Assembly (NCBI GenBank): GCA_037783545.1
Contig: JBBELK010000052.1
Coordinates: forward strand, 496,001 to 560,000
DNA: 64,000 bases
Reading direction: 5' to 3'
From: Henricia sp. BOLD:AAB3569
Taxonomy: Eukaryota > Echinodermata > Asteroidea > Spinulosida > Echinasteridae
Below the pieces are notes generated by a model. The model was not told the origin of the DNA. It did no database searches and worked only from the letters and a program-made list of their open reading frames with translations. The translations under genes and the position numbers were made by a program. Positions 13,772 through 62,905 of the stretch are shown in pieces (positions within the stretch are counted from its first letter, which is position 1; every line of letters starts with the position of its first letter).

Positions 13772-13908
13772 CTACAAGTCGACAGTAATACTGTGCTCTC
13801 CAGCAACACATGTGTAGGTGCCGGAATCACTGGCTGGAGAGAAGTCATTAATCAGAAGGCGAGTGACTGCATCAGAAACTTGTACTTTATGGACTCGTGT
13901 CCAGAAAG
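13772..13908 (-). CDS. FZ-Ig protein, final Ig-b exon (second half of Ig domain 4) with stop
   Basis: After an acceptor CCTTGCAG the exon starts in phase 1 (split codon GCT with the preceding exon). It reads AFWTRVHKVQVS...RLLINDF...DSGTYTCVAGEHSITVDL and then TAG at 13772-13774. DSGTYTC is the classic DxGxYxC F-strand motif of Ig domains. It completes the Ig half encoded at 14871-14996. No transmembrane helix or kinase domain follows, so the simplest reading is a secreted protein ending here. An alternative phase 1 donor (A|GTATTA) at 13791 could instead splice to an unseen exon. The gene runs right to left, and this is its last recognisable exon. Confidence 0.75.
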
Positions 13909-14408
13909 CTGCAAGGAATGGACAATTTCAAATGAAAATAAATTTCCATGCGTTGACCAATATTCCCACTCATTATGGGTACTATAGGCCCCGGCGCGGC
14001 CTACGCTTGTAACACAAATATTAACATAACTTCGACACCTTCCCTTCATGGGAATCTTCCAGAAACATCCTCAAGAAATGTTTTAACAATTACATGGTTT
14101 TACAAGTGTGATGTGAGCACGCCATCCCGTATTTTCACCTTTAAAGCCACCCTCGGGTCGACCTTGCGACGACGCAGAATTGTCGGCGGGCCTGGCTTTT
14201 TAGGAACAAGTTGTGCATGAGCTACGCTTGTCGACATCAAATTAGTCGGCGATTATTTTGAGACCTGTGTGTCTCCGACGAAGGTGCTAAAAAAATAAAC
14301 AGACTCACGAGTAGAACAAGTTCAACTTTTGCGACGTGATCCCGACTGTCGCAGCCAATGAACAAAATAGCGTGAACAAAATAGCGCCATGGTATCCTCG
14401 TCACCTGG

Positions 14409-14644
14409 GGCCAATTTCATGGCGCTGTTTCGCACAAATATTTGCTTAGCACAGAATTTCTTTACTTTATTTTGCAAAACTGGGTCGCCAGCCAAAATCG
14501 TAAGTGATTTGTATTTATTGATATTTTGCTCCTGTTCCTAAAAATACAATTTGACATACAATTTTTGCTGGTAACCCATTTTACAGAGCAAAGAAATTCT
14601 GTGCTAAACAAATTTTTGTGCTAAACAGCGCCATGAAATTGGCC
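14409..14644. mobile_element. 236-bp MITE, GGCCAATTTCATGGCGCTG family, 5-bp target duplication
   Basis: Ends GGCCAATTTCATGGCGCTG and its reverse complement. It is flanked by CCTGG on both sides (14404-14408, 14645-14649). A second copy of identical length lies at 62030-62265. Intronic, noncoding. Confidence 0.85.
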
Positions 14645-14870
14645 CCTGGTCACATCGAATCGTGCGTGCATATCCATGAAATGAGTGTTGTTGCGATTAT
14701 TTTGTGTCGAGTTGCCGCTTGTTCATTTTTTTGACCTATTACTTTTTTACTTGATGCCAAGTGTTCCCTTGCGACACAATTACGAGAGTCGTAGGTCGAC
14801 CTGAGGGCGGCGCTAAGAATAAAATCTCACGAGCTGAAGCATAACAAGTTGATAACAATTTGATCCATAC

Positions 14871-14996
14871 CAGCTGGGACATCCCTTCCGTCGGGATAGC
14901 GCCACTTCGGTTGGATAGCTGGCAAGAGGTTGTAGGTGCACTCCACAGAATAATCGGATCCATCCACCTTCACGTCACCAAGAACAAGCTCTTCCA
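14871..14996 (-). CDS. FZ-Ig protein, Ig-a exon (first half of Ig domain 4)
   Basis: A 126-bp exon between acceptor TTTTAACAG and donor G|GTATGG, phase 1 at both ends. It reads VEELVLGDVKVDGSDYSVEC then TYNLLPAIQPKWRYPDG...VPAG. It holds the B-strand cysteine and the core tryptophan (PKW) of an Ig domain. It has the same length and strong similarity to the exons at 18437-18562 and 22195-22320. It joins in frame to the exon at 13772-13908, which supplies the F-strand cysteine. Confidence 0.85.
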
Positions 14997-15935
14997 CTGT
15001 TAAAACAAGGTTTCGGCTGTTATATTCCATGCTCGGAAAGTAACGATTTATTCCATAAAAATCCTAGGCTAATCTGAATAGGAAATATCTCAGTTTGTCG
15101 AACTGATTAGCTTCTGAGCAGTACATCCGCAGACGGAAAGTTATAGAAGAAAAGGACAATTCAAAAAATGACATTTGGTTTTGTAAATTGCGCCTTTCCC
15201 CATTCGAACAAATACTAAGCTCGGCCAACCGAAAACGTTTCACTAAATTTATTTTTCAATTGTAATTCGATTCTGTCCTCAAATAATACACATTAACGTG
15301 CCCCCTAAATGACATGCAAACGGTTTTACTTGACATAATTACTGACTTGTTTGTGGTTATAGTAGTAGCAATAAAGTTAACCGCGATAATAATACATTTT
15401 TGACGGGAGTATTGGTGCTGTTGGCACCAGAGAAAACCACCTTTTTTTCAATACCCAGCACGATTTGGGGCCTTAGGACTCCCCCTTAAAGCCCCTATGA
15501 CTCGGCACACTCTTCTCTTTTGTTAACGCACCAACCCCCTAAAAACTGAAAGGAATTCCTTTGATGTTTAAAACACAATGGGGGACAATGGTGCTGCATA
15601 TGACTTTTGTTTTTTTGTTTTTGAAGAAAAATATTTAGAGTGAAGTCGTCATGTTCACTGACTTTCTATTTTTATGTGGAATGGGTCAGGGAACAATGTA
15701 AAAGGACGGCTGCAGTGAAGTCGAAGCTGCCAGGAAAGTTCCTGGAATTAATGCATTTTAAAACGGCACATTGTTTTGAGTTCAACAACATAGGCGGTTA
15801 CCCCTATAAATATAACAATCTATGACAGCACAAGTCACAACCACTTAGGCCTATAATCTATAACGATATAATTCTTCCATGAATGTGAGGTTAATGTGAA
15901 TAATTTCACTAACTATAAACATTTCAAATATATAC
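14997..15935 (-). other. intron between FZ3 and Ig-a exons
   Basis: No coding sequence or recognisable element was seen. It starts with a GT donor following 15936 and ends with TTTTAACAG before 14996. Confidence 0.5.
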
Positions 15936-16286
15936 CATTATGGCACTCGCTATTGGGATCCGTCTCGCTGGGCATGGAAGTACAGCTTTCCCTCATGCTC
16001 GCCAACTCTTCGGCAGCAAATAAATTACCCAGCGTGGCCGCGCACTGTTCTACAGCAGTAATGCACAGCTCCTGACACGGCAGCACAGCCTGCTCGCGAC
16101 AAGGTGGCACATACAGTGCGCACATGTAAGGACGGAAATATGAGCTGCATGGCTGATCGAAGATGACATCAAGACCGTTGAACACGCTTCCAAGTTGATC
16201 TTGGCTGAGACCGACGAGACTTGGGACATGCGTGGTTGAGTAACCGATGCCAACCGTGCAGGCGGGAACCCGAATCTCCTCGCAAG
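15936..16286 (-). CDS. FZ-Ig protein, third Frizzled-type cysteine-rich domain exon (FZ3)
   Basis: A 351-bp exon (acceptor GATTTCAG, donor G|GTATATA, phase 1-1) that encodes a complete Frizzled CRD. It opens CEEIRVPACTVGIGYSTTHV, continues with QPCSSYFRPYMCALYVPPC and LPCQELC, and ends SECHNG. All ten cysteines of the fold are present in order. FZ domains bind Wnt lipids or related ligands in Frizzled, SFRP, ROR and MuSK proteins. Binding here is an inference. The closest relative in view is FZ2 at 19894-20244, sharing REQAV.PCQELC and ECHNG-like ends. The preceding exon's last T makes the junction codon TCT (Ser), and the last G joins the Ig-a exon as GTG (Val), so the reading frame is continuous. 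Confidence 0.92.
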
Positions 16287-16741: not shown

Positions 16742-16942
16742 ATGACGCAGACGGTTCGGGGACTTCGACTGTCGGGAGAGTCGTATTTTCCCCGAGATCG
16801 CCGATAACGATAGTTTCAGCAGAAGCGAGGTCTTGTCCGAAGCAGCTGTAGCGCCCTCCGTCGACCACACGTTGGAAATCCTCAAAGTGAAGTGTCGTCA
16901 CACTTTCGGATGTATGGACTACTCGAATCCGAAAACTAGAAT
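16742..16942 (-). CDS. FZ-Ig protein, Ig-b exon (second half of Ig domain 3)
   Basis: A 201-bp exon (acceptor CATTTTGCAG, donor T|GTAATT, phase 1-1). It reads DSSFRIRVVHTSESVTTLHF then EDFQRVVDGGRYSCFGQDL...ETIVI and a linker VPEPSAS. DGGRYSC is the Ig F-strand motif. It pairs with the Ig-a exon at 18437-18562. Its paralogue at 21548-21739 shares the RIRVVHT start and YSCFG.DF/DL pattern. The longer tail after the domain forms the hinge to FZ3. Confidence 0.88.
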
Positions 16943-18436: not shown

Positions 18437-18562
18437 CGGTTGAGATTTCCTCCCCGCCAGCCGACAGCCACGTCGGTTGTAAAGACGGCAGCAGATTGTA
18501 GGTGCAGTCTACGGCGTAATCTAGTCCAACTATCTGGGGCTCTCCAATTTCAAGCTCGAGGA
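18437..18562 (-). CDS. FZ-Ig protein, Ig-a exon (first half of Ig domain 3)
   Basis: A 126-bp exon bounded by acceptor TTTTAACAG and donor G|GTACGA, phase 1-1. It reads VLELEIGEPQIVGLDYAVDC then TYNLLPSLQPTWLSAGGEEISTG. The B-strand cysteine and core tryptophan (PTW) are visible. It is a clear paralogue of 22195-22320 and 14871-14996, all exactly 126 bp. It joins the upstream FZ2 exon through codon GTC and the next Ig-b exon through GAT. Confidence 0.87.
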
Positions 18563-19893: not shown

Positions 19894-20244
19894 CATTATG
19901 ACACTGGCTGCTGGCATCCTCGGAACTGGGAAGGTTGGTACAACTCTCTATCATTCTGTCGACCGCTGCATGTGGAATGTACTTTTTAAGCGTCTCCTCG
20001 CACGGATGTAAAGCTTTCGTGCACAACTCCTGGCACGGCTGCACAGCTTGTTCGCGACATGGTGGCAGGAAGATAGAGCACATATACGGGCGGAGATACG
20101 AACTGCATGGAGTCTGAAAGGTGCTTTCCAGAGCGTCAAAAAAGTAGACTACGTCGTTCTGAGTGTGCGCAATTAGATTGGGGACATAAGTGGATGAGTA
20201 GCCGATGCCAACTGAGCAAGCAGGAATTCGAATCTTCTCGCAGG
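19894..20244 (-). CDS. FZ-Ig protein, second Frizzled-type cysteine-rich domain exon (FZ2)
   Basis: A 351-bp exon (acceptor CTTTCAG, donor G|GTATTT, phase 1-1) that encodes a full ten-cysteine Frizzled CRD. It starts CEKIRIPACSVGIGYSSTYV, continues TPCSSYLRPYMCSIFLPPC and QPCQELC, and ends SQCHNG. Length, phase and cysteine spacing equal those of FZ3 (15936-16286), which it resembles closely, so the two arose by cassette duplication. The upstream Ig-b exon (21548-21739) contributes the T of the junction codon TCC (Ser). Wnt or lipid binding is inferred from the family only. Confidence 0.92.
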
Positions 20245-21547: not shown

Positions 21548-21739
21548 ATGGTTGGTCGACAGGTCCTTCGGTGACGTTGACATGTATTTCCTGAGAATCT
21601 ACCAATACAGTTTGACCAGAGTTGAAGTCCTCTCCAAAGCAGCTATATAGACCCCCATCGGTGGTACTCTGGAAATCTCCAATGTAAAGCGTCGTCAAAG
21701 TTGCTTCAGTGTGAACCACTCGGATTCGAGAACTAGGAT
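21548..21739 (-). CDS. FZ-Ig protein, Ig-b exon (second half of Ig domain 2)
   Basis: A 192-bp exon (acceptor AAATCTGCAG, donor T|GTAAAG, phase 1-1). It reads DPSSRIRVVHTEATLTTLYI then GDFQSTTDGGLYSCFGEDF...GQTVLVD and a linker VTEGPVDQP. DGGLYSC is the Ig F-strand motif. It is a paralogue of 16742-16942. The donor lies within the target duplication of a MITE (21349-21543). It joins FZ2 in frame through TCC. Confidence 0.9.
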
Positions 21740-22194: not shown

Positions 22195-22320
22195 CGGTTG
22201 AAATCTCCCTTCCTCTTGGGGACAGCCATTTGGGTTGCAGAGCTGGATGAAGATTATACGTGCAGTCGATGGAGTAGTCTGATCCAACAATTCGAAGATC
22301 ACCAATCTCAACCTCTCTCG
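22195..22320 (-). CDS. FZ-Ig protein, Ig-a exon (first half of Ig domain 2)
   Basis: A 126-bp exon (acceptor GGAATAATAG, donor G|GTAGGT, phase 1-1). It reads REVEIGDLRIVGSDYSIDC then TYNLHPALQPKWLSPRGREISTG, with the B-strand cysteine and PKW. It is strikingly similar to the other two 126-bp Ig-a exons. Unlike those, no FZ exon is found immediately upstream. The 2.5 kb up to the previous exon (24846) holds a TIR element and a gypsy fossil, so an FZ exon may have been lost or never present. If spliced from 24846 the junction codon is TCG (Ser); if spliced from an FZ exon, GCG (Ala). Confidence 0.86.
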
Positions 22321-24845: not shown

Positions 24846-25010
24846 ATGGTTGATAGATGTTGTCGATGGTGACAGATCGCGAGTATGTGTCACCATCGCT
24901 GCAGGTGTAGATCCCGGCATCTCGAGAATCGATGAAATTATGAATGATGAGTCGGAAGACCGTCCCGTCATCCGAAGGAGCAACCTCAATGTGGTCCGTT
25001 TGTGGAGCGA
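24846..25010 (-). CDS. FZ-Ig protein, Ig-b exon (second half of Ig domain 1)
   Basis: A 165-bp exon (acceptor TATACTCAG, donor T|GTAAGT, phase 1-1). It reads VAPQTDHIEVAPSDDGTVFR then LIIHNFIDSRDAGIYTCSDG...SVTIDNIYQP. DAGIYTC is a canonical Ig F-strand motif. It pairs with the Ig-a exon at 61307-61444, from which it is separated by a ~36.3 kb intron holding the satellite array. It is more diverged from the other Ig-b exons than they are from each other. Confidence 0.88.
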
Positions 25011-26114: not shown

Positions 26115-29100
26115 AAAACTAGAGGTATGTCTGTTGATAACAGAGCATATGGCTTTCCGCTTTTCTTTTTTTGTATGTTTGTATGCATGTAAAACTGCAT
26201 GCTGTATAATACTACTTGTACAATATAAATACATACCGTACATATACATGTACAGTATGCAGTGACAAGATTCAAAAATTCATAATAAATCAACAAATCA
26301 TGCATGTCATACTAATGTAACTTGGTATGTTACATGTTAATGACCAGGTCCAGGCACCTGATAGTTTTCAAGGTCATACGACCAATGAAGAAAGTAAACG
26401 ACCTTGGTTAATGTATACTTGAGGAACTCTTATTTGATTACGTCATCGTGACGTCACAATATTTAGCTGATAATATACATTTGACCAATTCAAAATACGT
26501 TTTGGTCTTTTTTCAACTCGTCACTAGAGGGCGCTGTTTCGTGTGACGACTTAACTTTTTGTATTTTTTGAATGCCCAAGGGGTCCTGAGACTAACACCG
26601 TTGACACGATCTCGGCATCGCTTACCAGTTTTAAATGACAAGGCAGCCTCGTTTTCGACCAATAGGAAACAAGATTCAAGGTCAATGTCTCTGCATGAAA
26701 TTTAGACCTTGGATAGTCATGACCAGTGCCGAAAGAATAAATATTGTATCTCAAACGGTTGAATTTTTACAGATTTTTCAATTTGCAAGGCATTAAATTT
26801 CAGACACATGTAATCTGACACCTGGTGACGTCATCAAGATCTAACCTCTTTGGTATAGTACTTTACTATGGGTTCCTTATTGTGACTAAGTTTGATGATG
26901 ATCCAAGCTTTGCAAGCGACTCTTCTAGCACCGAGACAGACTGTGTGCTTTGTCTATGGGATAGTGCAGATGTATGCATATTGTACATGCTTATGTACAC
27001 TCGTATACATGTATATACTGCACTGTGTGTATGCTGTAGTATAGGTTACCAGATTCAAAAATTCATAACAAATCAACAAATGACGTCACACTAATGTAAC
27101 TTGGTATGTTATATGTTAATGACCAAGTCTACGTCCCTGCTAGGTTTCAAGGTCATACGCCCATTAGAGGAAGTGAACGACCTTGGCAAATTTATGCTGC
27201 ACAAACGGGCTTATTTGATGACGTCATCGTTACGCCACCAAATTTTGCTGCTAATATGCATTAGACCAAGTCACAACAAACCTAAAACACAAAATTTGAC
27301 CTCCATCGGCCTTTTCGTTCTCTAGATATAACCGTTAGAAGAACGCATGTTCAACTGAGTGTAATTTGACACCTGGTGACGTCATCAAACTTTTGAAGGT
27401 ATGGGCGTGTTCACTGACCCTCAGTGAACATATGCACCAATTTTGGGCCAATTTGCAAAAACTTCGCCACAGACATCTCTTCAAAATAGGTTTTGGCCAT
27501 TTTTCAACTTGCCGCTAGAGGGCGCTCTTTCGTGTCACGACTTAACTTTTGGTATTTTTGGAATGCCCAAGAAGTCTTGAGACTAACTATTTTGACCCGA
27601 TCTCTGTATCTGCTACCAGTTTTAAATGACAGGGCAGCCTCGTTTTCGACCAATAGGAAGCAAGATTCAAGGTCAATGTCTGTGTATGAAATTTAGACCT
27701 TGGATAGTCATGACCATTGCCGAAGGAATAAAGTTTGTATCTCAAACGGTTGAATTTTTACAGAAGTTTAAATGTTGAAGGCCATATATTTCAAACGCTT
27801 GTAATCTGACACCTGATGACGTCATCAAAATGTAAACACATTTGTGCAGTACTTCATTATAAGGTGATTGTTGTGACCAAGTTTGATGATGATCCGAGCT
27901 TTGCAAGTGACCATTTTGCCAGGCCGAAAGACCATGCGCTTTGTCTATGGGGTTTTGGGAGAAGAATAAAAAAAGCTAAAAAAACTAGAAGTATGTCTGT
28001 TGATAACAGAGCATATGGCTTTCCGCTTTTCTTTTTTTGTATGTTTGTATGCATGTAAAACTGCATGCTGTATAATACTACATCTACACTTTGTACAATG
28101 TAAATGCATACCGTACATGTACATGTACATGCACAGTGACAAGATTCAAAAATTCATAATAAATCAACAAATCATGCATGTCATACTAATGTAACTTGGT
28201 ATGTCACATGTTAATGACCAGGTCCATGCACCTGCTAGGTTTGAAGGTCATACGACTAATGGAGGAAGTAAACGACCTTTGCTAATGTATGATGCACAAA
28301 CGCGCTTATTTGATGACATCGTGACGCCACAAGATTTTGCTGACAATATGCATTAGAACAAGTCACAACAAACCTAAAACACAAAATTTGACCTTCGTCG
28401 GCCTTTTCGTTCTTCAGATATAACCGTTAGAAGAACGCATGTTCAACCGAGTGTAATTTGACACCTGGTGACGTCATCAAACTGTTGAAGGTATGGACAT
28501 GTTCACTGACCCTCAGTGAACACTTGCACCAATTTTGGGCCAATTAGCAAAAACTTCGCCGCAAACATCTCTTCAAAATACGTTTTGGTTATTTTTAAAC
28601 TCGCCGCTAGAGGGCGCTCTTTTGTGTGACGACTTAACTTTTGCTATTTTTGTAATGCCCAAGGTGTCCCGAGACTAACAACGTTGACCCAATCTCGGTA
28701 TCTGCTACCAGTTTTAAATGACAACGCAGCCTCGTTTTCGACCAATAGGAAGCAAGATTCAAGGTCATTGTCTCTGCATGAAATTTAGACATTGGATAGT
28801 CATGACCATTGCCGAAACAAAAATTTTTAAATCTCAAACGGTTGAATTTTTACAGATTTTTGAATTTTTAAGGCATTAAATTTCAGACACATGTAATCTG
28901 ACCCCTGGTGACGTCATCAATATGTAACCTCTTTGGTATAGTACTTTAATATGGGTTCCTTATTGTGACCAAGTTTGATGATGATCCAAGCTTTGCAAGC
29001 GACCCTTCTAGCAGCGAGATAGACTATGTGCTTTGTCTATGGGAAATGGGGTAGTGCAGATGTATGCATATTGTACATGCTTATGTACACTCGTATATAC

Positions 29101-30058
29101 TGCACTGTGTGTATGCTGTGGTATAGGTTGCCAGATTCAAAAATTCATAACAAATCAACAAATGACGTCACACTAATGTAACTTGATATGTTATATGTTA
29201 ATGACCAAGTCTACGTCTTTGCTAGGTTTCAAGGTCATACGCCCATTAGAGGAAGTGAACGACCTTGGCTAATGTATGCTGCACAAACGGGCTTATTTGA
29301 TGACGTCATCGTTACGCCACCAAATTTTGCTGCTAATATGCATTAGACCAAGTCACAACAAACCTAAAACACAAAATTTGACCTCCATCGGCCTTTTCGT
29401 TCTCTAGATATAACCGTTAGAAGAACGCATGTTCAACTGAGTGTAATTTGACACCTGGTGACGTCATCAAACTTTTGAAGGTATGGGCGTGTTCACTGAC
29501 CCTCAGTGAACATATGCACCAATTTTGGGCCAATTTGCAAAAACTTCGCCACAGACATCTCTTCAAAATAGGTTTTGGCCATTTTTCAACTTGCCGCTAG
29601 AGGGCGCTCTTTCGTGTCACGACTTAACTTTTGGTATTTTTGGAATGCCCAAGAGGTCTTGAGACTAACACTTTTGACCCGATCTCTGTATCTGCTACCA
29701 GTTTTAAATGACAGGGCAGCCTCGTTTTCGACCAATAGGAAGCAAGATTCAAGGTCAATGTCTGTGTATGAAATTTAGACCTTGGATAGTCATGACCATT
29801 GCCGAAAGAATAAAGTTTGTATCTCAAACGGTTGAATTTTTACAGAAGTTTCAATTTGAAGGCCATATATTTCAAACGCTTGTAATCTGACACCTGATGA
29901 CGTCATCAAAATGTAAACACATTTGTGCAGTACTTCATTATGTGGTGATTGTTGTGACCAAGTTTGATGATGATCCGAGCTTTGCAAGTGACCATTTTGC
30001 CAGGCCGAAAGACCATGCGCTTTGTCTATGGGGTTTTGGGAGAAGAATAAAAAAAGCT

Positions 30059-30276
30059 AAAAACTAGAGGTATGTCTGTTGATAACAGAGCATATGGCTT
30101 TCCGCTTTTTGGCTTTCCGCACTCCTGCGGAAAGCCTTTGAAACTGTTCTGATTTTTTTGTTTTTTTTTTTTTTTTTTTTTTTGGCTTTCCGCACTCCTG
30201 CGGAAAGTCCTTGTTTCTGTTCTGATTTTTTTTTTTTGGCTTTCCGCACTCCTGCGGAAAGCCTTTGAAACTGTTC

Positions 30277-30307
<31 letters not shown>

Positions 30308-30346
30308 GGCTTTCCGCACTCCTGCGGAAAGCCTTTGAAACTGTTC

Positions 30347-30380: not shown

Positions 30381-30383
<3 letters not shown>

Positions 30384-32503: not shown

Positions 32504-32534
<31 letters not shown>

Positions 32535-48808: not shown

Positions 48809-50576
48809 CATACCAAGTTACATTAGTGTGACGTAATTTGTTGATTTGTTATGAATTTTTGAATCTGGCAACCTATACCACAGCATACACACAGTGCAGT
48901 ATATACGAGTGTACATAAGCATGTACAATATGCATACATCTCTGCACTTCCCCCATATCCCATAGACAAAGCACACAGTCTGTCTCGCTGCTAGAAGGGT
49001 CGCTTGCAAAGCTTGGATCATCATCAAACTTGGTCACAATAAGGAACCCATAGTAAAGTACTATACCAAAGAGGTTACATCTTGATGACGTCACCAGGTG
49101 TCAGATTACATGTGTCTGAAATTTAATGACTTAAACATTCAAAAATTTGTAAAAATTCAACCGTTTGAGATACAAACTTTATTCTTTCGGCAATGGTCAT
49201 GACTATCGAAGGTCTAAATTTCATACACAGACATTGACCTTGAATCTTGCTTCCTATTGGTCGAAAACGAGGCTGCGTTGTCATTTAAAACTGGTAGCAG
49301 ATACCGAAATTGGGTCAACGTTGTTAGTCTCGGGACCCCTTGGGCATTACAAAAATACCAAAAGTTAAGTCGTCACACAAAAGAGCGCCCTCTAGCGGCA
49401 AGTTGAAAAATGGCCAAAACGCATTTTGAAGAGGTGTCTGTGGCGAAGTTTTTGCAAATTGGCCCAAAATTGGTGCATATGTTCACTGAGGGTCAGTGAA
49501 TATGCCCATACTTTCAAAAGTTTGATGACGTCACCAGGTGTCAAATTACACTCGGTTGAACATGCGTTCTTCTAACGGCTATATCTAGAGAACGAAAAGA
49601 CCGATGGGGGTAACATTTTGTGTTTTAGGCTTGTTGTGACTTGCTCTAATGCATATTGTCAGCAACATTTGGTGGCGTTAAGATGACGTCATCAAAAAAG
49701 CGCGCTTGTGCAGCATACATTATAGCCAAGGTTGTTTGACTTGGTGCAATGTGTATTATCAGCTAAATATTGTGATGTCACGATGACGTAATTAAATAAG
49801 AGTTCCTCAAGTATACATTAACCTAGGTTGTTTACTTCTTCCATTGGTCGTATGACCTTGAAACCTAGCAGGTGACTGGACCTGGTCATTAACAGGCATA
49901 TTACATGCGTGATTTGTTGATTTATTATGAATTTTGGAATTTTGTCACTGTGCATGTACATGTACATGTACATGTACGTATGTATTTACATTGTACAAAG
50001 TGTACATGTACGTATGTATTTACATTGTACAAAGTGTACATGTAGTATTATACAGCATGCAGTTTTACATGCATACAAACATACAAAAAAAGAAAAGCGG
50101 AAAGCCATATGCTCTGTTATCAACAGACATACTTCTAGTTTAGCTTTTTTTATTCTTCTCCCAAAACCCCATAGACAAAGCGCATGGTCTTTCTACCTGG
50201 CAAAATGGTCACTTGCAAAACTCGGATCATCATCAAACTTGGTCACAACAATCACCTCATAATGAAGTACTGCACAAATGTGTTTACATTTTGATGACGT
50301 AATCAGGTGTCAGATTACAAGCGTTTGAAATATATGGCCTTCAATATTAAAACTTCTGTAAAAATTCAACCGTTTGAGATACAAACTTTATTCCTTCGGC
50401 AATGGTCATGACTATCTAAGGTCTAAATTTCATACACAGACATTGACCTTGAATCTTGCTTCCTATTGGTCGAAAACGAGGCTGCCCTGTCATTTAAAAC
50501 TGGTAGCAGATACAGAGATCGGGTCAAAAGTGTTAGTCTCAAGACCTCTTGGGCATTCCAAAAATACCAAAAGTTA

Positions 50577-52540
50577 AGTTGTGACACGAAAGAGCGCCCT
50601 CTAGCGGCAAGTTGAAAAATGGCCAAAACCTATTTTGAAGAGATGTCTGTGGCGAAGTTTTTGCAAATTGGCCCAAAATTGGTGCATATGTTCACTGAGG
50701 GTCAGTGAACACGACCATACCTTCAAAAGTTTGATGACGTCACCAGGTGTCAAATTACACTCAGTTGAACATGCGTTCTTCTAACGGTTATATCTAGAGA
50801 ACGAAAAGGCCGATGGAGGTCAAATTTTGTGTTTTACGTTTGTTGTGACTTAGTCTAATGCATATAAGCAGCAAAATTTGGTGGCGTAACGATGACGTCA
50901 TCAAATAAGCCTGTTTGTGCAGCATACATTCGCCAAGGTCGTTCACTTTCTCTAATGGTCGTATGACCTTGAAACTTGGCAGGGACGTAGACTTGGTCAT
51001 TAATATATAACATACCAAGTTACATTAGTGTGACGTCCTTTGTTGATTTGTTATGATTTTTTAAATCTGGCAACCTATACCACAGCATACACACAGTGCA
51101 GTATATACGAGTGTACATAAGCATGTACAATATGCATACATCTGCACTACCCCATTTCCCATAGACAAAGCACCTAGTCTATCTCACTGCTAGAAGGGTC
51201 GCTTGCAAAGCTTGGATCATCATCAAACTTGGTCACAATAAGGAACCAATACTAAAGTACTATACAAAAGAGGTTACATCTTGATGACGTCACCAGGGGT
51301 CAGATTACATGTGTCTGAAATTTAATGCCTTAAAAATTCAAAAATCTGTAAAAATTCAACCGTTTGAGATACAAACATTTTTGTTTCGTCAATGGTCATG
51401 ACTATCCAAGGTCTAAATTTCATGCACAGACATCGACCTTGAATATTGCTTCCTATTGGTCGAAAACGAGGCTGCCCTGTCATTTAAAACTGATAGCAGA
51501 TACAGAGATCGGGTCAAAAGTGTTAGTCTCAAGACCTCTTGGGCATTCCAAAAATACCAAAAGTTAAGTTGTGACACGAAAGAGCGCCCTCTAGCGGCAA
51601 GTGGAAAAATGGCCAAAACCTATTTTGAAGAGATGTCTGTGGCGAAGTTTTTGCAAATTGGCCCAAAATTGGTGCATATGTTCACTGAGGGTCAGTCAAC
51701 ACGACCATACCTTCAAAAGTTTGATGACGTCACCAGGTGTCAAATTACACTCAGTTGAACATGCGTTCTTCTAACGGTTATATCTAGAGAACGAAAAGGC
51801 CGATGGAGGTCAAATTTTGTGTTTTACGTTTGTTGTGACTTAGTCTAATGCATATAAGCAGCAAAATTTGGTGGCGTAACGATGACGTCATCAAATAAGC
51901 CTGTTTGTGCAGCATACATTCGCCAAGGTCGTTCACTTTCTCTAATGGTCGTATGACCTTGAAACTTGGCAGGGACGTAGACTTGGTCATTAATATATAA
52001 CATACCAAGTTACATTAGTGTGACGTCCTTTGTTGATTTGTTATGATTTTTTAAATCTGGCAACCTATACCACAGCATACACACAGTGCAGTATATACGA
52101 GTGTACATAAGCATGTACAATATGCATACATCTGCACTACCCCATTTCCCATAGACAAAGCACCTAGTCTATCTCACTGCTAGAAGGGTCGCTTGCAAAG
52201 CTTGGATCATCATCAAACTTGGTCACAATAAGGAACCAATACTAAAGTACTATACCAAAGAGGTTACATCTTGATGACGTCACCAGGGGTCAGATTACAT
52301 GTGTCTGAAATTTAATGCCTTAAAAATTCAAAAATCTGTAAAAATTCAACCGTTTGAGATACAAACATTTTTGTTTCGTCAATGGTCATGACTATCCAAG
52401 GTCTAAATTTCATGCACAGACATCGACCTTGAATATTGCTTCCTATTGGTCGAAAACGAGGCTGCCCTGTCATTTAAAACTGATAGCAGATACAGAGATC
52501 GGGTCAAAAGTGTTAGTCTCAAGACCCCTTGGGCATTCCA
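50577..52540 (-). repeat. recent exact 990-bp monomer duplication
   Basis: The A-type monomer starting around 50.58 kb and the one 990 bp later are almost identical, including private variants such as GTTTTACGTTTG, CATTCGCCAAGG, AGCACCTAGTC and CATCGACC. Confidence 0.85.
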
Positions 52541-53039
52541 AAAATACCAAAAGTTAAGTCGTCACACGAAAGAGCGCCCTCTAGCGGCGAGTTGAAAGAT
52601 GGCCAAAACTTATTTTGAAGAGATGTTTGCGGCGAAGTTTTTGCTAATTGGCCCAAAATTGGTGTATATGGTCACTGAGGGTCAGTGAACATGCCCATAC
52701 CTTCAAAAGTTTGATGACGTCACCAGGTGTCAAATTACACTCAGTTGAACATTCGTTCTTCTAACGGTTATATCTAGACTACGAAAAGGCCGATAGAGGT
52801 CAAATTTTGTGTTTTAGGTTTGTAGTGACTTGTTCCAATGCATATTTTCAGCAAAATCTTGTGACGTCACGATGACGTCAACAAATAAGCGCGTTTGTGC
52901 AGCATAAATTAGCCAAGGTCGTTCACTTTCTGTATTGGTCGTATGACCTTGAAACCTAGCAGGTACGTAGACCTGGTCATTAACATGTAACATACCAAGT
53001 TACATTAGTATGACATGCATATTTTGTTGATTTATTATG

Positions 53040-53345
53040 AATTTTTAAATCTTGTCACTGTGCATGTACATGTACGGTATGCATTTACATTGTACAAAGT
53101 ATACATGTAGTATTATACAGCATGCAGTTTTCCATGCATACAAACATACAAAAAAAGAAAAGCGGAAAGCCATATGCTCTGTTATCAACAGACATACTTC
53201 TAGTCTTTTTTTATATGTTTGATGCATTTAAAACTGCATGCTGTATAATACTACATGTACACTTTGTACAATATAAATACATACCGTACATGTACATGTA
53301 CAGTATGCACAGTGACAAGATTCAAAAATTCATAATAAATCAACA
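53040..53345. repeat. second inversion point of the array (palindrome)
   Basis: About 53040-53150 (ATGAATTTTTAAATCTTGTC ... TTCCATGCATA) and 53221-53345 are reverse complements (TGATGCATTTAAAACTGC ... ATTCATAATAAATC). A spacer of about 70 bp, itself B-monomer sequence, separates them. The array is reversed to the left and forward to the right. Confidence 0.85.
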
Positions 53346-56300
53346 AATCATGCATGTAATACTAATGTAACTTGGTATGTTATATGTTAATGACCAAGTG
53401 TACGTCCCTGCTCGGTTTCAAGGTCATACGACCATTAGAGGAAGTGAACGACCTTGGCTAATGTATGCTGTACAAACGGGCTTATTTGATGACGTCATCG
53501 TTACGCCACCAAATTTTGCTGCTAATATGCGTTAGACCAAGTCACAACAAACCTGAAACAAAATATTTTACCTTCATCGGCCGTTTCGTTCTCTAGATAT
53601 AGCTGTTAAAAGGATGCACGTTCAAGCGAGTGTAATTTGACACATGGTGACGTCATCAAACTTTTGAAAGTATGGGCATATTCACTGACCCTCAGTGAAC
53701 ATATGCACCAATTTTGGGCCAATTTGCAAAAACTTCGCCACAGACATCTCTTCAAAATAGGTTTTGGCCATTTTTCAACTTGCCGCTAGAGGGCGCTCTT
53801 TCGTGTGACGACTTAACTTTTGGTATTTTTGTAATGCCCAAAGGGTCCCGAGACTAACAACGTTGACCCAATTTCGGTATCTGCTACCAATTTTAAATGA
53901 CAACGCAGCCTCGTTTTCGACCAATAGGAAGCAAGATTCAAGGTCATTGTCTCTGCATGAAATTTAGACATTGGATAGTCATGACCATTGCCGAAACAAA
54001 AATGTTTGTATCTCAAACGGTTGAATTTTTACAGATTTTTGAATTTGTAAGGCATTAAATTTCAGACACATGTAATCTGACCCCTGGTGACGTCATCAAG
54101 ATGTAACCTCTTTGGTATAGTACTTTAGTATGGGTTCCTTATTGTGACCAAGTTTGATGATGATCCAAGCTTTGCAAGCGACCCTTCTAGCAGCGAGATA
54201 GACTATGTGCTTTGTCTATGGGAAATTGGGTAGTGCAGATGTATGCATATTGTTCATGCTTATGTACACCCGTATATACTGCACTGTGTGTATGCTGTGG
54301 TATAGGTTGCCAGATTCAAAAATTCATAACAAATCAACAAAGGACGTCACACTAATGTAACTTGGTATGTTATATGTTAATGACCACGTCTACGTCCCTG
54401 CTCGGTTTCAAGGTCGTACGACCATTAGAGGAAGTGAACGACCTTGGCAAATGTATGCTGCACAAACGGGCTTATTTGATGACGTCATCGTTACGCCACC
54501 AAATTTTGCTGCTAATATGCATTAGACTAAGTCACAACAAACCTAAAACACAAAATTTAACCTCTATCGGCCTTTTCGTTCTCTATATTTAACCGTTAGA
54601 AGAACGCATGTTCAACTGAGTGTAATTTGACACCTGGTGACGTCATCAAACTTTTGAAGGTATGGGCATGTTCACTGACCCTCAGTGAACATATGCACCA
54701 ATTTTTGGCCAATTTGCAAAAACTTCGCCACAGACATCTCTTCAAAATAGGTTTTGGCCATTTTTCAACTTGCCGCTAGAGGGCGCTCTTTTGTGTCACG
54801 AATTAAATTTTGGTATTTTTGGAATGCCCAAGAGGTCTTGAGACTAACACTTTTGACCCGATCTCTGTATCTGCTACCAGTTTTAAATGACAGGGCAGCC
54901 TCGTTTTCGACCAATAGGAAGCAAGATTCAAGGTCAATGTCTGTGTATGAAATTTAGACCTTGGATAGTCATGACCATTGCCGAAAGAATAAAGTTTGTA
55001 TCTCAAACGGTTGAATTTTTACAGAAGTTTCAATTTGAAGGCCATATATTTCAAACGCTTGTAATCTGACACCTGATGACGTCATCAAAATGTAAACACA
55101 TTTGTGCAGTACTTCATTATGAGGTGATTGTTGTGACCAAGTTTGATGATGATCCGAGCTTTGCAAGTGACTATTTTGCCAGGCCGAAAGACCATGCGCT
55201 TTGTCTATGGGGTTTTGGGAGAAGAATAAAAAAAGCTAAACTAGAAGTATGTCTGTTGATAACAGAGCATATGGCTTTCCGCTTTTTGTATTGTTTATGT
55301 TTGTATGCATGTAAAACTGCATGTTGTATAATACTACATGTACACTCTGTACACTCTGCTACCAGTTTTAAATGATAAGGCAGCCTCGTTTTCGACTAAG
55401 AGGAAGCAAGATTCAAGGTCATTGTCTGTGCATAAAATTTAGACCTTGGATAGTCATGACCAGTATCGAAGGAAACAAGTTCGTATCTCAAACGGTTAAA
55501 TATTTACAGATTTTTGAATTTGTAAGGCATTAAATTTCAGGCGCATTTAATCTGACACCTGGTGACGTCATCAAGATGTAACAACTTTGGTAAAGTACTT
55601 TACTATGGGTTCCTTATTGTGACCAAGTTTGATGATGATCCAAGCTTTGCAAGCGACCCTTCTAGCAGCGAGATAGACTATGTGCTTTGTCTATGGGATA
55701 TGGGGTAGTGCAGATGTATGCATATTGTACATGCTTATGTACATGAATATATACTGCACTGTGTGTATGCTGTAGTATAGGTTGCCAGATTCAAAAATTC
55801 ATAACAAATCAACAAATGACGTCACACTAATGTAACTTGGTATGTTATATGTTAATGACCAAGTCTACGTCCCTGCAAGGTTTCAAGGTCATACGACCAA
55901 TAGAGGAAGTGAACGACCTTGGCTAATATATGCTGCACAAACGCGCTTATTTGATGACGTCATCGTTACGCTAACAAATTTTTTCTGATAATATGCATTA
56001 TATTAAGTCACAACAATACTAAAACACAAAATTTGACCTCCATCGGCCTTTTCGTTCTCTAGATATAGCCGTTAGAAGAACGCATGTTCAACTGAGTGTA
56101 ATTTGACACCTGGTGACGTCATCAAACTTTTGAAGGTATGGGCATGTTCACTGACCCTCAGTCAACATATCCACCAATTTTGGGCCAACTTGCAAAAACT
56201 TCGCCACAGACATCTCTTGAAAACGCGTTTTGGCCATTTTTCAACTTGCCGCTAGAGGGCGCTCTTTCGTGTGACGACCTAACTTTTGGTATTTTTTGTA

Positions 56301-59300
56301 TGCCCAAGGGGTCCTGAGACTAACACTTTTGACCGGATCTCGGTATCTGCTACCAATTTTAAATGACAACGCAGCCTCGTTTTCGACCAATAGGAAGCAA
56401 GATTCAAGGTCATTGTCTCTGCATGAAATTTAGACATTGGATAGTCATGACCATTGCCGAAACAAAAATGTTTGTATCTCAAACGGTTGAATTTTTACAG
56501 ATTTTTGAATTTTTAAGGCATTAAATTTCAGACACATGTAATCTGACCCCTGGTGACGTCATCAAGATGTAACCTCTTTGGTATAGTACTTTAGTATGTG
56601 TTCCTTATTGTGACCAAGTTTAATGATGATCCAAGCTTTGCAAGCGACCCTTCTAGCAGCGAGACAGACTATGTGCTTTGTCTATGGGATATGGGGAAGT
56701 GCAGATGTATGCATATTGTACATGCTTATGTACACGCATATATACTGCACTGTGTGTATGCTTTAGTATAGGTTGCCAGATTCAAAAATTCATAACAAAT
56801 CAACAAAGGACGTCACACTAATGTAACTTGGTATGTTATATGTCAATGACCAAGTCTACGTCCCTGCTAGGTTTCAAGGTCATATGCCCATTAGAGGAAG
56901 TGAACGACCTTGGCAAATGTATGCTGCACAAACGGGCTTATTTGATGACGTCATCGTTACGCCACCAAATTTTGCTGCTAATATGCATTAGATCAAGTCA
57001 CAACAAACCTAAAACACAAAATTTGACCTCCATCGGCCTTTTCGTTCTCTAGATATAACCGTTAGAAGAACACATGTTCAACTGAGTGTAATTTGACACC
57101 TGGTGACGTCATCAAACTTTTGAAGGTATGGGCATGTTCACTGACCCTCAGTGAACATATGCACCAATTTTGGGCCAATTTGCAAAAACTTCGCCACAGA
57201 CATATCTTCAAAATAGGTTTTGGCCATTTTTCAACTTGCCGCTAGAGGGCGCTCTTTCGTGTCACGACTTAACTTTTGGTATTTTTGGAATGCCCAAGAG
57301 GTCTTGAGACTAACACTTTTGACCCGATCTCTGTATCTGCTACCAGTTTTAAATGACAGGGCAGCCTCGTTTTCGACCAATAGGAAGCAAGATTCAAGGT
57401 CAATGTCTGTGTATGAAATTTAGACCTTGGATAGTCATGACCATTGCCGAAAGAATAAAGTTTGTATCTCAAACGGTTGAATTTTTACAGAAGTTTCAAT
57501 TTGAAGGCCATATATTTCAAACGCTTGTAATCTGACACCTGATGACGTCATCAAAATGTAAACACATTTGTGCAGTACTTCATTATGAGGTGATTGTTGT
57601 GACCAAGTTTGATGATGATCCGAGCTTTGCAAGTGACCATTTTGCCAGGCCGAAAGACCATGCGCTTTGTCTATGAGGTTTTGGGAGAAGAATAAAAAAA
57701 GCTAAAAACTAGAGGTATGTCTGTTGATAACAGAGCATATGGCTTTCCGCTTTTGTTTTTATGTATGTTTGTATGCATGTAGGACTGCATGCTGTATAAT
57801 ACTACATGTACACTTTGTACAATGTAAATGCATACCGTACATGTACATGTACATGTACAGTGACAAGATCCTCAGACTAACACTTTTGACCCGATCTCGG
57901 TATCTGCTACCAATTTTAAATGACAGGGCAGCCTCGATTTCGACCAATAGGAAGCAAGATTCAAGGTCAATGTCGGTGTATGAAATTTAAACCTTAGATA
58001 GTCATGACCATTGCCGAAAGAATAAAGTTTGTATCTCAAACGGTTGAATTTGTACAGATTTTTGAATTTTTAAGTCATTAAATTTCAGACACATGTAATC
58101 TGACACCTGGTGACGTCATCAAGATGTAACCTCTTTGGTATAGTACTTTACTATGGGTTCCTTATTGTGACCAAGTTTGAAGATGATCCAAGCTTTGCAA
58201 GCGACCCTTCTAGCAGCGAGACAGACTATGTGCTTTGTCTATGGGATATGGCGTAGTGCAGATGTATGCATATTGTATATGCTGATGTATACTCAATATG
58301 CTGCACAGTGTGTATGCTGTAGTATAGGTTGCCAGATTAAAAAATTCATAACAAATCAACAAATGACGTCACACTAATGTAACTTGGTATGTTACATGTC
58401 AATGACCTAGTCTGCGTCCCTGCTAGGTTTCAAGGTCATACGACCATTAGAGGAAGTGAACGACCTTGGCTAATGCATGCTGCACAAACGGGCTTATTTG
58501 ATGACGTCATCGTTACGCCACCAAATTTTGCTGCTAATATGCATTAGAACAAGTCACAACAAACCTAAAACACAAAATTTGACCTCCATCGGCCTTTTCG
58601 TTCTCTAGATATAACCGTTAAAAGAACGCATGTTCAACTGAGTGTAATTTGACACCTGGTGACGTCATCAAACTTTTGAAGGTATGGGCGTGTTCACTGA
58701 CCCTCAGTGAACATATGCACCGATTTTGGGCCAATTTGCAAAAACTTCGCCACAGACATCTCTTCAAAATAGGTTTTGGCCATTTTTCAACTTGCCGCTA
58801 GAGGGCGCTCTTTCGTGTCACGACTTAACTTTTGGTATTTTTGGAATGCCCAAGAGGTCTTGAGACTAACACTTTTGACCCAATCTCGGTATCTGCTACC
58901 AGTTTTAAATGACGACGCAGCCTCGTTTTCGACCAATAGGAAGCAAGATTCAAGGTCATTGTCTGTGCATGAAAATTAGACATTGGATAGTCATGACCAT
59001 TGCCGAAACAAAAATGTTTGTTTCTCAAACGGTTGAATTTTTACAGATTTTTGAATTTTTAAGGCATTAAATTTCAGACACATGTAATCTGACACCTGGT
59101 GACGTCATCAAGATGTAACCTCTTTGGTATAGTACTTTACTATGAGTTCCTTATTGTGACCAAGTTTGATGATGATCCAAGCTTTGCAAGCGACCCTTCT
59201 AGCAGCGAGATAGACTATGTGCTTTGTCTATGGGATATGGGTAGTGCAGATGTATGCAGATTGTACATGCTTATGTACACTCGTATATACTGCACTGTGT

Positions 59301-60246
59301 GTATGCTGTAGTATAGGTTGCCAGATTCAAAAATTCATAACAAATCAACAAATGACGTCACACTAATGTAACTTGGTATGTTATATGTTAATGACCAAGT
59401 CTACGTCCCTGCTAGGTTTCAAGGTCATACGCCCATTAGAGGAAGTGAACGACCTTGGCTAATGTATGCTGCACAAACGGGATTATTTGATGACGTCATC
59501 GTTACGCCACCAAATTTTGCTGCTAATATGCATTAGACCAAGTCACAACAAACCTAAAACACAAAATTTGACCTTCATCGGCCTTTTCGTTCTCTAGATA
59601 TAACCGTTAGAAGAACGCATGTTCAACTGAGTGTAATTTGACACCTGGTGACGTCATCAAACTTTTGAAGGTATGGGCGTGTTCACTGACCCTCAGTGAA
59701 CATATGCACCAATTTTGGGCCAATTTGCCAAAACTTCGCCACAGACATCTCTTCAAAATAGGTTTTGGCCATTTTTCAACTTGCCGCTAGAGGGCGCCCT
59801 TTCGTGTCACGACTTAACTTTTGGTATTTTTGGAATGCCCAAGAGGTCTTGAGACTAACACTTTTGACCCGATCTCTGTATCTGCTACCAGTTTTAAATG
59901 ACAGGGCAGCCTCGTTTTCGACCAATAGGAAGCAAGATTCAAGGTCAATGTCTGTGTATGAAATTTAGACCTTGGATAGTCATGACCATTGCCGAAGGAA
60001 TAAAGTTTGTATCTCAAACGGTTGAATTTTTACAGAAGTTTCAATTTGAAGGCCATATATTTCAAACGCTTGTAATCTGACACCTGATGACGTCATCAAA
60101 ATGTAAACACATTTGTGCAGTACTTCACTATGAGGTGATTGTTGTGACCAAGTTTGATGATGATCCGAGCTTTGCAAGTGACCATTTTGCCAGGCCGAAA
60201 GACCATGCGCTTTGTCTATGGGGTTTTGGGAGAAGAATAAAAAAAG

Positions 60247-60247
<1 letters not shown>

Positions 60248-60289
<42 letters not shown>

Positions 60290-60738
60290 GAACAGTTTCA
60301 AAGGCTTTCCGCAGGAGTGCGGAAAGCCAAAAAAAAAAAAAAAAAAATCAGAACAGTTTCAAAGGCTTTCCGCAGGAGTGCGGAAAGCCAAAAAAAAAAA
60401 AAAAAATCAGAACAGTTTCAAAGGCTTTCCGCAGGAGTGCGGAAAGCCAAAAAAAAAAAAAAAAAAAAATCAGAACAGTTTCAAAGGCTTCCGCAGGAGT
60501 GCGGAAAGCCAAAAAAAAATCAGAACAGTTTCAAAGGCTTTCCGCAGGAGTGCGGAAAGCCAAAAAAAAAAAAAAAAAAAAAAAAATCAGAACAGTTTCA
60601 AAGGCTTTCCGCAGAAGTGCGGAAAGCCAAAAATCAGAACAGTTTCAAAGGCTTTCCGCAGAAGTGCGGAAAGCCAAAAAAAAAAAAAAAAAATCAGAAC
60701 AGTTTCAAAGGCTTTCCGCAGGAGTGCGGAAAGCCAAT
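60248..60738 (+). repeat. hairpin/poly(A) minisatellite at the right edge of the array (8 units)
   Basis: Eight units of the 42-bp sequence (starts near 60287, 60347, 60407, 60469, 60519, 60587, 60634, 60692) separated by A runs of 3 to about 40. Two units carry GCAGAAGTGC instead of GCAGGAGTGC in the loop, and one lacks a T. The apparent long lysine-rich frame across it is an artefact of the A runs. The array stops directly after the last unit. Confidence 0.9.
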
Positions 60739-61306
60739 AAAAGAAACAACGACGCCCTCCGTTTTCCAGTCCAATGCATGGTATTCGTCATGACCTGAAA
60801 AGCTTGGTACACAATGTTGGCTGTGCCATTCCCGTACGCAGGGATCTCATTTTCACACACACAGCGTGACCCACACACGGTATATACATGCACAATTCCC
60901 AGTTAGCGATACTGTTTCCGTACACATACCACACATATTAGGGCTGTATTCTTCTGATAAATTTATATTAATTCAGTTGTCCGTCTGCGTTGTTTACATG
61001 ATTTCATTATTATTCTACATATAACTCCTTTCATAGCCAAGCAGTACATGTATACATAAATTTGTGAAGTGATTTGCCCACATGCCAAAAGGACGTGTTC
61101 CAACTGACCGCTGTGTACTTTTCCTTGACCAGTTGAGTCGTACACACACACAAGTGATTTTATGGGACTTTTGCCGTGAAACTTTTCCATACCAACAAGA
61201 CTATTTAATAGGTGCTGGGTGCACACTTAAATGTCATGCACTTCGTCGTTTCTGTAACTGTGCTAACTACTACAATGTTTTATTGTGGATGGCTGATGAC
61301 AATTAC
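60739..61306 (-). other. intron between array and Ig-a exon 1
   Basis: No coding sequence or repeat family was recognised. The donor of the Ig-a exon (G|GTAATT) lies at 61307/61306. Confidence 0.45.
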
Positions 61307-61444
61307 CAGATGATTTTGTGAGGGTTGCAGTGGGTGTGATCCAAGCGGGACTGAAGTTTGCGGCATGACGACATTCTACCTCCACACGCTTTGCTGTGGC
61401 TGAATCCAGAGCATCAACAACACTGACAGGTCCAATCTCTACGC
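61307..61444 (-). CDS. FZ-Ig protein, Ig-a exon (first half of Ig domain 1)
   Basis: A 138-bp exon (acceptor TACTTATAG, donor G|GTAATT, phase 1-1). It reads GVEIGPVSVVDALDSATAKR then VEVECRHAANFSPAWITPTATLTKSSG. The B-strand cysteine (VEC) and core tryptophan (PAW) fit the first half of an Ig domain. It is 12 bp longer than the other three Ig-a exons and more diverged. It splices across a 36.3 kb intron to 24846-25010. Confidence 0.82.
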
Positions 61445-61602
61445 CTATAAGTACAAACAATGGGAAACACAATGTTCAACTTCAAACAAGAGAGAACCAT
61501 TTTAGTTTAAATTCGCCGTCATGTCCTGAGATTACACAACTAACACGGAAATTGAAGAAACATTACGGGTGTTCAGCGGAGAGATTATAGTGTAAGTTAC
61601 AA

Positions 61603-62352
61603 TAGACAGCCGAAGTGTGACGTGGTTGCCATGGCAATTGGCTCTAAACTATCATGGCCATCGCCAAAGTACCATAGGAAAAGCACAGGGAGACACGGTT
61701 CAGTGATTTTTAGTTTAGAGCCAATTGCCTAGGCAACCAACAAAAGGTGACGTATTCACTTTGGCAGTCTATACACGAATCCGGTTGCTATGGACTCCTT
61801 CCCTGCAAGTCCGCCATTACTGGGGGCCATCCACTGCCTAAACTGGGCGCTTTGTCTTGTTGTTAAATCGAACAGAGCAAAACGCGTACGCGTACACAGG
61901 CTTCACAAGCAAATAAACGCGCAAACTTGTTCGAAGTGACAACATAATGTAACAGCATATCATCAACACAAAACCCACAGTTCATGGCACTGGATGGCCC
62001 CCAGCTATGGCGGACGTACACGGACCATGGGCCAATTTCATGGCGCTGCTAAGCACACAAATTTGCTTAGCACAGGATTTGTTTGCTTCATTTTGCAAAA
62101 ATTGATTGCCAGCCATAATCCTAAGTGATGTGTATTGAAAGGTATTATCCTACTCTTGCGAAGAACACAAGTTGGCGTATAATTTTGGCTTGTAATCCAT
62201 TTTATAAAGCAGATACATTATGTGCTAAGCAAATTTTTGTGCTTAGCAGCGCCGTGAAATTGGCCCCATGACTTTCCAGCTCGGATTGGTGTATAGACCT
62301 TATCCAATAGCCGCCAATTGCCATGGCAACCACGTCACACTTCGGCTGTCTA
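61603..62352. mobile_element. nested TIR elements (TAGACAGCCGAAGTG ends)
   Basis: Arm 61603-61641 (TAGACAGCCGAAGTGTGACG ... GCCATGGCAATTGGC) is the perfect reverse complement of 62313-62352. A second related inverted arm at about 61706-61772 makes 61603-61772 a complete short hairpin element. The 236-bp MITE at 62030-62265 lies inside the outer pair. Intronic, between FZ1 and Ig-a 1. Confidence 0.75.
62030..62265. mobile_element. 236-bp MITE, second copy, CCATG target duplication
   Basis: Same ends as 14409-14644 (GGCCAATTTCATGGCGCTG) and same length. It is flanked by CCATG at 62025-62029 and 62266-62270, confirming 5-bp target duplications for this family. Confidence 0.88.
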
Positions 62353-62554
62353 CTTCGGCAAATACCTTTACTCATGCGTGACCGCTTATGGCAGAAGATT
62401 TTCAACATGACGTTGAGTATATACAGAGGTTCCACCTTTTGCTATACATTCGCATTATTGATATTTTTCTGCTCTTGACTTTCGAGGCATCTGTTCAAAT
62501 TTCTAGGGAAGAATAGTTTCCGTAAAAATAAATGGTTATAACACAGGGACATAC

Positions 62555-62905
62555 CATTATAGCAGTCCCCCTCAGCTTCTGACTCCAAGTCTTCACACGG
62601 TAGTGGCTGAATACCAGTGGCTTCAAATACCTCGGTACAATCTGCTTGGATACGCAAACAGACTTCCCGACATACCCAAAACTTGTTGGTGCTGCTAGCG
62701 TTGCACCGGGGCAAAGCAAGACCGCAGAGCAGCGTTCCGAGGTAGGGGGAACAATCGGTCATCGCCACGGGTTCAAATCTCTGCAGCATAACGTGAACCT
62801 CACTCTGGGAAAACATCCCGAATGCATTAGGAAGCCGGGTGTGGGTGTAGCCAACCCTGTTTTTGCAAAACGAGGAATCTTGGATTGGCTCACACGAACC
62901 CGGAT
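62555..62905 (-). CDS. FZ-Ig protein, first Frizzled-type cysteine-rich domain exon (FZ1)
   Basis: A 351-bp exon (acceptor TCACTATAG, donor G|GTATGT, phase 1-1). After a split first codon it reads PGSCEPIQDSSFCKNRVGYT, then HTRLPNAFGMFSQSEVH, TDCSPYLGTLLCGLALPRC, FWVCREVC and ends GDCYNG. The ten cysteines are in Frizzled CRD order, but with longer spacing between the first two and an N-glycosylation site NAS. It is more diverged than FZ2 and FZ3 are from each other, yet exactly as long. It is the most upstream exon visible; signal peptide exons must lie beyond the window. The next exon in frame is 61307-61444 (junction codon GGC). Confidence 0.9.

Follow-up and report, generated by a model that had tools for sequence, protein, structure and literature searches.

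Exons on a Henricia contig that probably encode one secreted starfish protein of alternating Frizzled and immunoglobulin domains

The window analysed here is a 64,000-nucleotide stretch of the genome of the starfish Henricia sp. (C52:496001-560000, on contig C52 of a 740.7-Mb assembly), and its minus strand carries the exons of a protein that alternates Frizzled-type cysteine-rich domains (CRDs; FZ domains below) with immunoglobulin (Ig) domains. An earlier note, made from the letters alone, had described eleven minus-strand exons within 13772..62905 that join into the order FZ-Ig-Ig-FZ-Ig-FZ-Ig with three ten-cysteine FZ domains. We found all eleven, with AG acceptors, GT donors and phase-1 joins, and this order is borne out by the exon reading, by Pfam Fz matches and by starfish relatives. 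The gene extends beyond the window, where exon homology and splice-site reading place FZ, Ig-a and Ig-b exons upstream at C52:562540-560348 (the FZ1 acceptor is ambiguous within a few codons). The extended model has 14 exons and 976 residues, signal exon not included, in the order FZ-Ig-FZ-Ig-Ig-FZ-Ig-FZ-Ig (4 FZ + 5 Ig). By splice-site reading, 13/13 introns have GT-AG borders and lie in phase 1. Each FZ domain occupies one exon and each Ig domain two, and the 50 cysteines divide as 4x10 (FZ) and 5x2 (Ig). The terminal exon reads ITVDL and then a TAG stop; the polyadenylation signals AATAAA and ATTAAA are absent from the 1.27 kb after the stop. The features are as follows (positions are those of the window unless prefixed by C52; P numbers denote database proteins).

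C52:562540-562148, minus strand: FZ1 exon, upstream of the window
C52:561237-561133, minus strand: Ig1a exon, upstream of the window
C52:560515-560348, minus strand: Ig1b exon, upstream of the window
62555..62905, minus strand: FZ2 exon, a ten-cysteine Frizzled CRD of phase 1-1 with 44% identity to the FZ2 domain in Acanthaster P0001
61307..61444, minus strand: Ig2 first-half exon, aligning with P0001 residues 356-393
26268..60846 (ends approximate), no strand assigned: 34-kb satellite array inside the intron between the Ig2 halves; its ~990-bp unit occurs in either orientation
24846..25010, minus strand: Ig2 second-half exon, aligning with P0001 residues 391-452
22195..22320, minus strand: Ig3 first-half exon
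21548..21739, minus strand: Ig3 second-half exon
19894..20244, minus strand: FZ3 exon
18437..18562, minus strand: Ig4 first-half exon
16742..16942, minus strand: Ig4 second-half exon
15936..16286, minus strand: FZ4 exon, sharing 70-71% identity with the final FZ in Patiria P0003; AlphaFold2 predicted local distance difference test (pLDDT) 89.6
14871..14996, minus strand: Ig5 first-half exon
13772..13908, minus strand: Ig5 second-half and terminal exon, ITVDL-TAG, where the starfish relatives also end, within one residue

With four starfish proteins as queries, 11/11 window exons were matched on the minus strand at expect values (E) below 1e-3, and no window alignment off the exons reached E<0.05. 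The reversed-window control gave 11 alignments, none at E<1e-3 (best E 0.28), which rules out a chance explanation for the exons. The Pfam Fz model matches the three window FZ exons above its curated cut-off (E 6.3e-19, 2.8e-16 and 5.7e-14); these are three of the 46 Fz matches listed in the genome, and a fourth lies at C52:562176-562538 on the same strand. The profile check of the four window Igs was less clear-cut: each has the Cys-Trp-(D.G.Y.C) core, but all stay below the Pfam cut-offs, the joined half-exons reaching E 0.045, 0.0043, 0.0083 and 1.4e-4 at best. Outside the window, Ig1 clears the cut-off of the Pfam family 'ig' by 0.1 bit, and whole starfish relatives clear the Pfam Ig cut-offs (P0001, Ig_3, E 5.1e-25, a sum over several Igs of which one stretch passes alone). 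Our own hidden Markov models were trained on family proteins, and their E-values serve only to set domain borders. Pfam found nothing above cut-off in eight further open reading frames of the window. The AlphaFold2 model of full-length Patiria P0007 (mean pLDDT 59.8, predicted template modelling score 0.30) displays only alternating helical and strand-rich stretches.

Compared with 5.8 billion proteins, the joined protein gave 13 matches at E<=0.001, namely 10 starfish proteins, one crinoid multi-FZ protein and two corins, and a profile search at E<=1e-8 gave four, namely three starfish proteins (two new) and one metagenome protein, with the best 7994 candidates scored. All named proteins with an alternating FZ-Ig series among the matches are asteroid, and on this ground alone the window genome would very probably be asteroid too. 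Because the protein searches require shared exact words, restrict the length and score a capped number of candidates, FZ-Ig series in other classes may have been missed. The relatives are database entries labelled 'uncharacterized'.

The FZ-Ig-FZ-Ig front of the asteroid family is present in the window protein by domain order, as it is in LOC110989943 of Acanthaster planci (P0001; FZ-Ig-FZ-Ig-Igx5-FZ-Ig-FZ-Ig) and LOC119745886 of Patiria miniata (P0003-P0007; P0003 reads FZ-Ig-FZ-Ig-Igx5-FZ-Ig). FZ1 is 57-61% identical to its Patiria and Acanthaster counterparts (61% to Acanthaster FZ1). P0001, P0003, LOC117295337 of Asterias rubens (P0014) and P0002 of Asterias amurensis share the FZ-Ig end and the same C-terminal end, and 5/5 aligned relatives stop within one residue of the window protein's end, just after an Ig. 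Unit numbers differ: the window gene has 4 FZ and 5 Ig, Acanthaster 4 and 9, Patiria P0003 3 and 8, A. rubens 9 FZ and 8 Ig with two LDLa (Pfam), and A. amurensis 7 FZ with two LDLa; unlike the window protein, the Asterias proteins start with an additional FZ. LOC110988813 (P0008, Acanthaster), LOC119740207 (P0010) and LOC110984704 (P0015) have a first FZ of the FZ1 type (7 rows, Shimodaira-Hasegawa-like approximate likelihood ratio test, SH-aLRT, 99; P0011 lies outside the tree). These three and P0011 (LOC119740235) all end in an Ig, and P0010, P0011 and P0015 end in FZ-Ig like the window protein, but differ from it by SRCR, LDLa and fn3 domains in between. Since every intron is phase 1, in-frame joining is weak evidence by itself, and the single-gene claim rests on the relatives: the uncharacterized Acanthaster, Patiria and Asterias proteins indicate that the window exons would be most of one gene. 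The domain order of the gene and its relatives supports a multivalent protein in which FZ and Ig alternate. The earlier note had not recognised this architecture; it stands as an alternating FZ-Ig series of an echinoderm kind, but is not unique, starfish relatives being already in the databases.

We compared single domains in quick trees (37 FZ and 42 Ig domains from 8 proteins; P0002, P0004-P0007 and P0011 left out). FZ1 of the window gene, Acanthaster and Patiria forms one group (SH-aLRT 89), as does Ig2 of the same three (89; 97 with P0008). The last FZ is also common, with window FZ4 joining Patiria F3 and Acanthaster F3/F4 (83), and the last Ig is common to Acanthaster and Patiria (100), though window Ig5 falls elsewhere. 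The internal units have multiplied separately in each lineage, grouping by species in Patiria (I3-I7, 98), Acanthaster (F3/F4, 100; I5/I6, 98), A. rubens (F3-F8, 96) and the window gene (Ig3/Ig4, 92; 59% identical to each other). In A. rubens an FZ-FZ-Ig block of 344 residues is repeated at 97% identity (334/344). Phase-1 exons also allow the Ig number to differ between Patiria isoform models: compared with P0003, one Ig fewer is present in P0004-P0006 and two fewer in P0007, and one unit in P0005 and one in P0007 are 95% and 91% identical, respectively, to their nearest P0003 Ig and may be hybrids of halves.

The absence of a visible kinase or membrane segment, noted earlier, holds: the stop follows directly after Ig5, an end common to the relatives, and no seven-transmembrane domain occurs there or in Pfam scans of the relatives. 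Between the two settings first suggested, secreted or surface, the former is likelier, given signal-like N-termini in relatives (by eye in P0003, P0008, P0010 and P0014) and the common C-terminal stop, and a membrane anchor is less likely. Judged from its sequence and those of its relatives, the protein of the window gene is probably secreted.

PMC6333880 names the residues that line the acyl groove in FZD2, FZD5 and FZD7. Ten of them, mapped by motif onto two Frizzleds of the same genome, together with one tryptophan make up the 11 positions counted here. The count covers the same proteins as the trees. The mapping employs FZD8 numbering. Both own-genome Frizzleds match at 11/11, whereas the window gene's FZ1 to FZ4 match at 5, 3, 1 and 0. 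Along each relative the counts are 4, 1, 1, 1 in Acanthaster P0001, 4, 1, 1 in Patiria, 7, 4 and then 1-2 for F3-F9 in A. rubens, 5, 1, 1, 3 in P0008, and 5, 1 in both P0010 and P0015; crinoid P0009 has 6-11 in F2-F7 and 2-3 in F1, F8 and F9. All ten cysteines are retained in 37/37 family FZ domains. The canonical acyl site is not conserved in the repeated part, and the Wnt- or lipid-binding role proposed earlier is weakened for FZ3 and FZ4, although lipid binding may persist given the hydrophobic substitutions.

With a little more confidence than doubt, we hold that one gene encodes a probably secreted starfish FZ-Ig-FZ-Ig-Ig-FZ-Ig-FZ-Ig protein that would serve as a soluble recognition or matrix protein rather than as a Wnt decoy. 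We infer this multivalent function from domain content, and prefer it to a decoy because most groove residues have disappeared from the later FZ domains. The FZ and Ig domains, closed by disulphides, would form a long multivalent extracellular chain. Its front (FZ1, FZ2, Ig2) and its final FZ-Ig unit recur across species and would keep a common role, and the units in between would present a species-specific binding surface. Because every intron is phase 1, units can be freely added or skipped, and the middle ones may be duplicated or passed over without breaking the frame. FZ domains are mostly regarded as Wnt-binding. A repeated FZ that alternates with Ig, keeps its ten cysteines and has mostly lost its groove would suggest that the CRD is a general extracellular binding scaffold. 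The all-phase-1 design explains the free gain and skipping of units, and allows one to ask which partners the shared and the variable parts bind. Among open PMC papers (titles and abstract starts) we found no published description of the family; its sequences are already public as 'uncharacterized', and its known broader kind is that of secreted FZ-domain proteins.

Several points weigh against this reading. The FZ1 groove match is borderline at 5/11, several lost groove positions in FZ3 and FZ4 are still hydrophobic, and the groove alignment of these two domains is uncertain around helix 3. The signal exon of the window gene is unplaced, with candidates only (e.g. C52:566178-566109), P0001, P0002 and P0015 have no clear signal peptide by eye, and the relatives are themselves predictions taken from databases. 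It is not established that every domain of the front part has a one-to-one partner, because Ig1 has no clean pairing, FZ2 groups only once P0008 is added (85), and 18/34 and 15/39 inner branches of the quick trees are open. Nor is the mixing of FZ and Ig strictly asteroid, since our own Ig model detects one Ig between FZ domains in P0020 (sea cucumber), P0037 (sea urchin) and P0039 (Acanthaster), single Igs that the precomputed Pfam list lacks. Finally, unit turnover is also known in structural proteins.

That last point leads to a structural role in matrix, skeleton or adhesive secretion, in which unit number varies and length matters more than sequence. We regard it as unlikely, though worth keeping in view. 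The repeat-like architecture, the variation of unit number between species and isoform models, and the joining of FZ and Ig with SRCR, LDLa and fn3 in relatives all fit it, and a Patiria skeletal paper (PMC5460417) names an 'IG/Fugu/Scavenger Receptor Domains' protein; against it, the word 'frizzled' is absent from that skeletal proteome paper, and both 'frizzled' and 'FZ domain' from a sea-star footprint paper (PMC9382459), as far as their main texts go.

A secreted decoy for Wnt or lipid ligands, resembling the sFRPs, would capture Wnt acyl chains with several FZ domains simultaneously and so sequester the ligand, with the Igs as spacers, and is in our judgement just as doubtful as a structural role. 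The sFRPs and Sizzled combine a single FZ with an NTR domain, whereas the window protein combines 4 FZ with 5 Ig, and Pfam scans of P0001-P0004, P0008, P0010, P0014 and P0015 and of the scanned window domains found no NTR domain. Groove matches also stand against a decoy: FZ2-FZ4 have 3, 1 and 0, and in Acanthaster, Patiria and A. rubens the later FZ domains have 1-2. Somewhat more speculative still is a narrower form of recognition, where an FZ CRD without acyl groove would be a repeated, variable module in an immune-type or self-recognition repertoire of soluble proteins, diversified by fast unit turnover between species and phase-1 splice shuffling, comparable in principle to splice-diversified Ig proteins.

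A more radical alternative denies the single gene: the satellite would separate the exons of two genes, or the exons would be those of a decayed gene. The intervening array is indeed 34 kb long, and all-phase-1 introns would let unrelated exons join in frame too. Unit matches span 26268-60222, and A/T-hairpin repeats continue to ~60.75 kb; the 990-bp unit recurs at 26 places longer than 600 bp (itself included), 17 in one orientation and 9 in the other, at 88-100% identity. Yet the two exons bordering the array complete each other to a single Ig and align with adjoining P0001 residues (356-393 and 391-452), which places the array in an intron within that Ig. On this alignment across the satellite we reject two separate genes, and open exon frames with canonical splice sites also count against the alternative; taken together, we consider it very improbable. 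A DNA search with 61250-62950 found the exon pair at a single genome place among the best 40 of 8045 candidates, which also led us to reject a second allele or copy without the satellite. Its other matches are mostly a dispersed intronic repeat of ~260 bp (61769-62029), probably a small mobile element; at the majority of the 40 scored genome places its identity is mostly 93-98%. Within the array, A/T homopolymers adjoin a hairpin (GGCTTTCCGCACTCCTGCGGAAAGCC).

A standard ROR or MuSK receptor with overlooked kinase exons shares the co-occurrence of FZ and Ig, and is rejected with near certainty by the stop after Ig5, the absence of an HRD kinase motif from C52:478-596 kb, a predicted FZ4 fold nearer to Frizzled, and a ROR-like gene elsewhere. 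The earlier note had named nearby kinase exons as evidence for such a receptor, and neither that motif search nor a kinase-family search with a capped number of candidates placed any in this gene. ROR and MuSK are receptor kinases of the membrane in which a single FZ follows the Igs. The modelled FZ4 fold is closer to Frizzled receptors than to MuSK/ROR, whose own FZ fold is more distant, and the window FZ domains are not of the ROR/MuSK sort. The ROR-like kinase gene lies at C105:75282-92016 on the minus strand (L028, L029), with more copies on C204 and C216; Pfam identifies its kinase and two FZ exons (80573, 83613), and reading by eye adds an Ig exon, Kringle-like exons and a membrane segment. 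Its FZ appears to be duplicated.

ROR and MuSK, cited earlier as the known animal proteins with FZ and Ig, are not the only ones, as there are also the 'hemicentin-like' FZ-Ig proteins of starfish and crinoids, and FZ/SRCR/LDLa/Ig proteins. The hemicentin-like proteins P0042-P0049 resemble the window protein in having FZ and Ig and no kinase in precomputed Pfam lists, but differ in a single N-terminal FZ, many Ig models, Kunitz domains in several, and another C-terminus (P0042, P0044, P0046 and P0047 inspected). Multi-FZ proteins of crinoid (P0009/P0019), sea cucumber (P0020), sea urchin (P0037), amphioxus (P0038) and medaka (P0017) carry tandem FZ, with only Fz in precomputed Pfam lists, and differ from the window protein by having no alternating Ig series. 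When crinoid P0009 was the query, multi-FZ proteins came up from other echinoderms, amphioxus, fish, a lobster and an octocoral. The uncharacterized teleost proteins P0017, P0018, P0025 and P0028-P0031 (medaka, killifish, live-bearers) are related to the echinoderm multi-FZ family; the two scanned have 12 (P0017) and 6 (P0025) tandem FZ domains.

A plus-strand multi-FZ gene lies head to head with the FZ-Ig gene at C52:572186-586740 (L012, L013). Its FZ domains are each split over two exons, its C-terminal motif GWVDVQGQGAANDYCR is common with crinoid P0009, and two FZ pieces have a stop inside the match that may be intronic. Summed tblastn scores, which count repeated domains many times, are 2572 bits for A. 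rubens LOC117296064 (P0024), 2514 for medaka P0017 (inflated by 12 repeats) and 1731 for Patiria LOC119745889 (P0035), its best among three regions. The contigs listed for P0024, P0035 and P0033 have the same lengths as those of the FZ-Ig genes in their own species, which suggests that the linkage may be conserved. Another multi-FZ gene or cluster occupies C981:27395-95051 (L015-L023), which gives Acanthaster LOC110984961 (P0039) a higher score than either of the other two regions does, such sums favouring longer repeat proteins. On the plus strand of the window, the open frame at 1140-2849 encodes a chondroitin N-acetylgalactosaminyltransferase (Pfam CHGN, E 5.5e-155).

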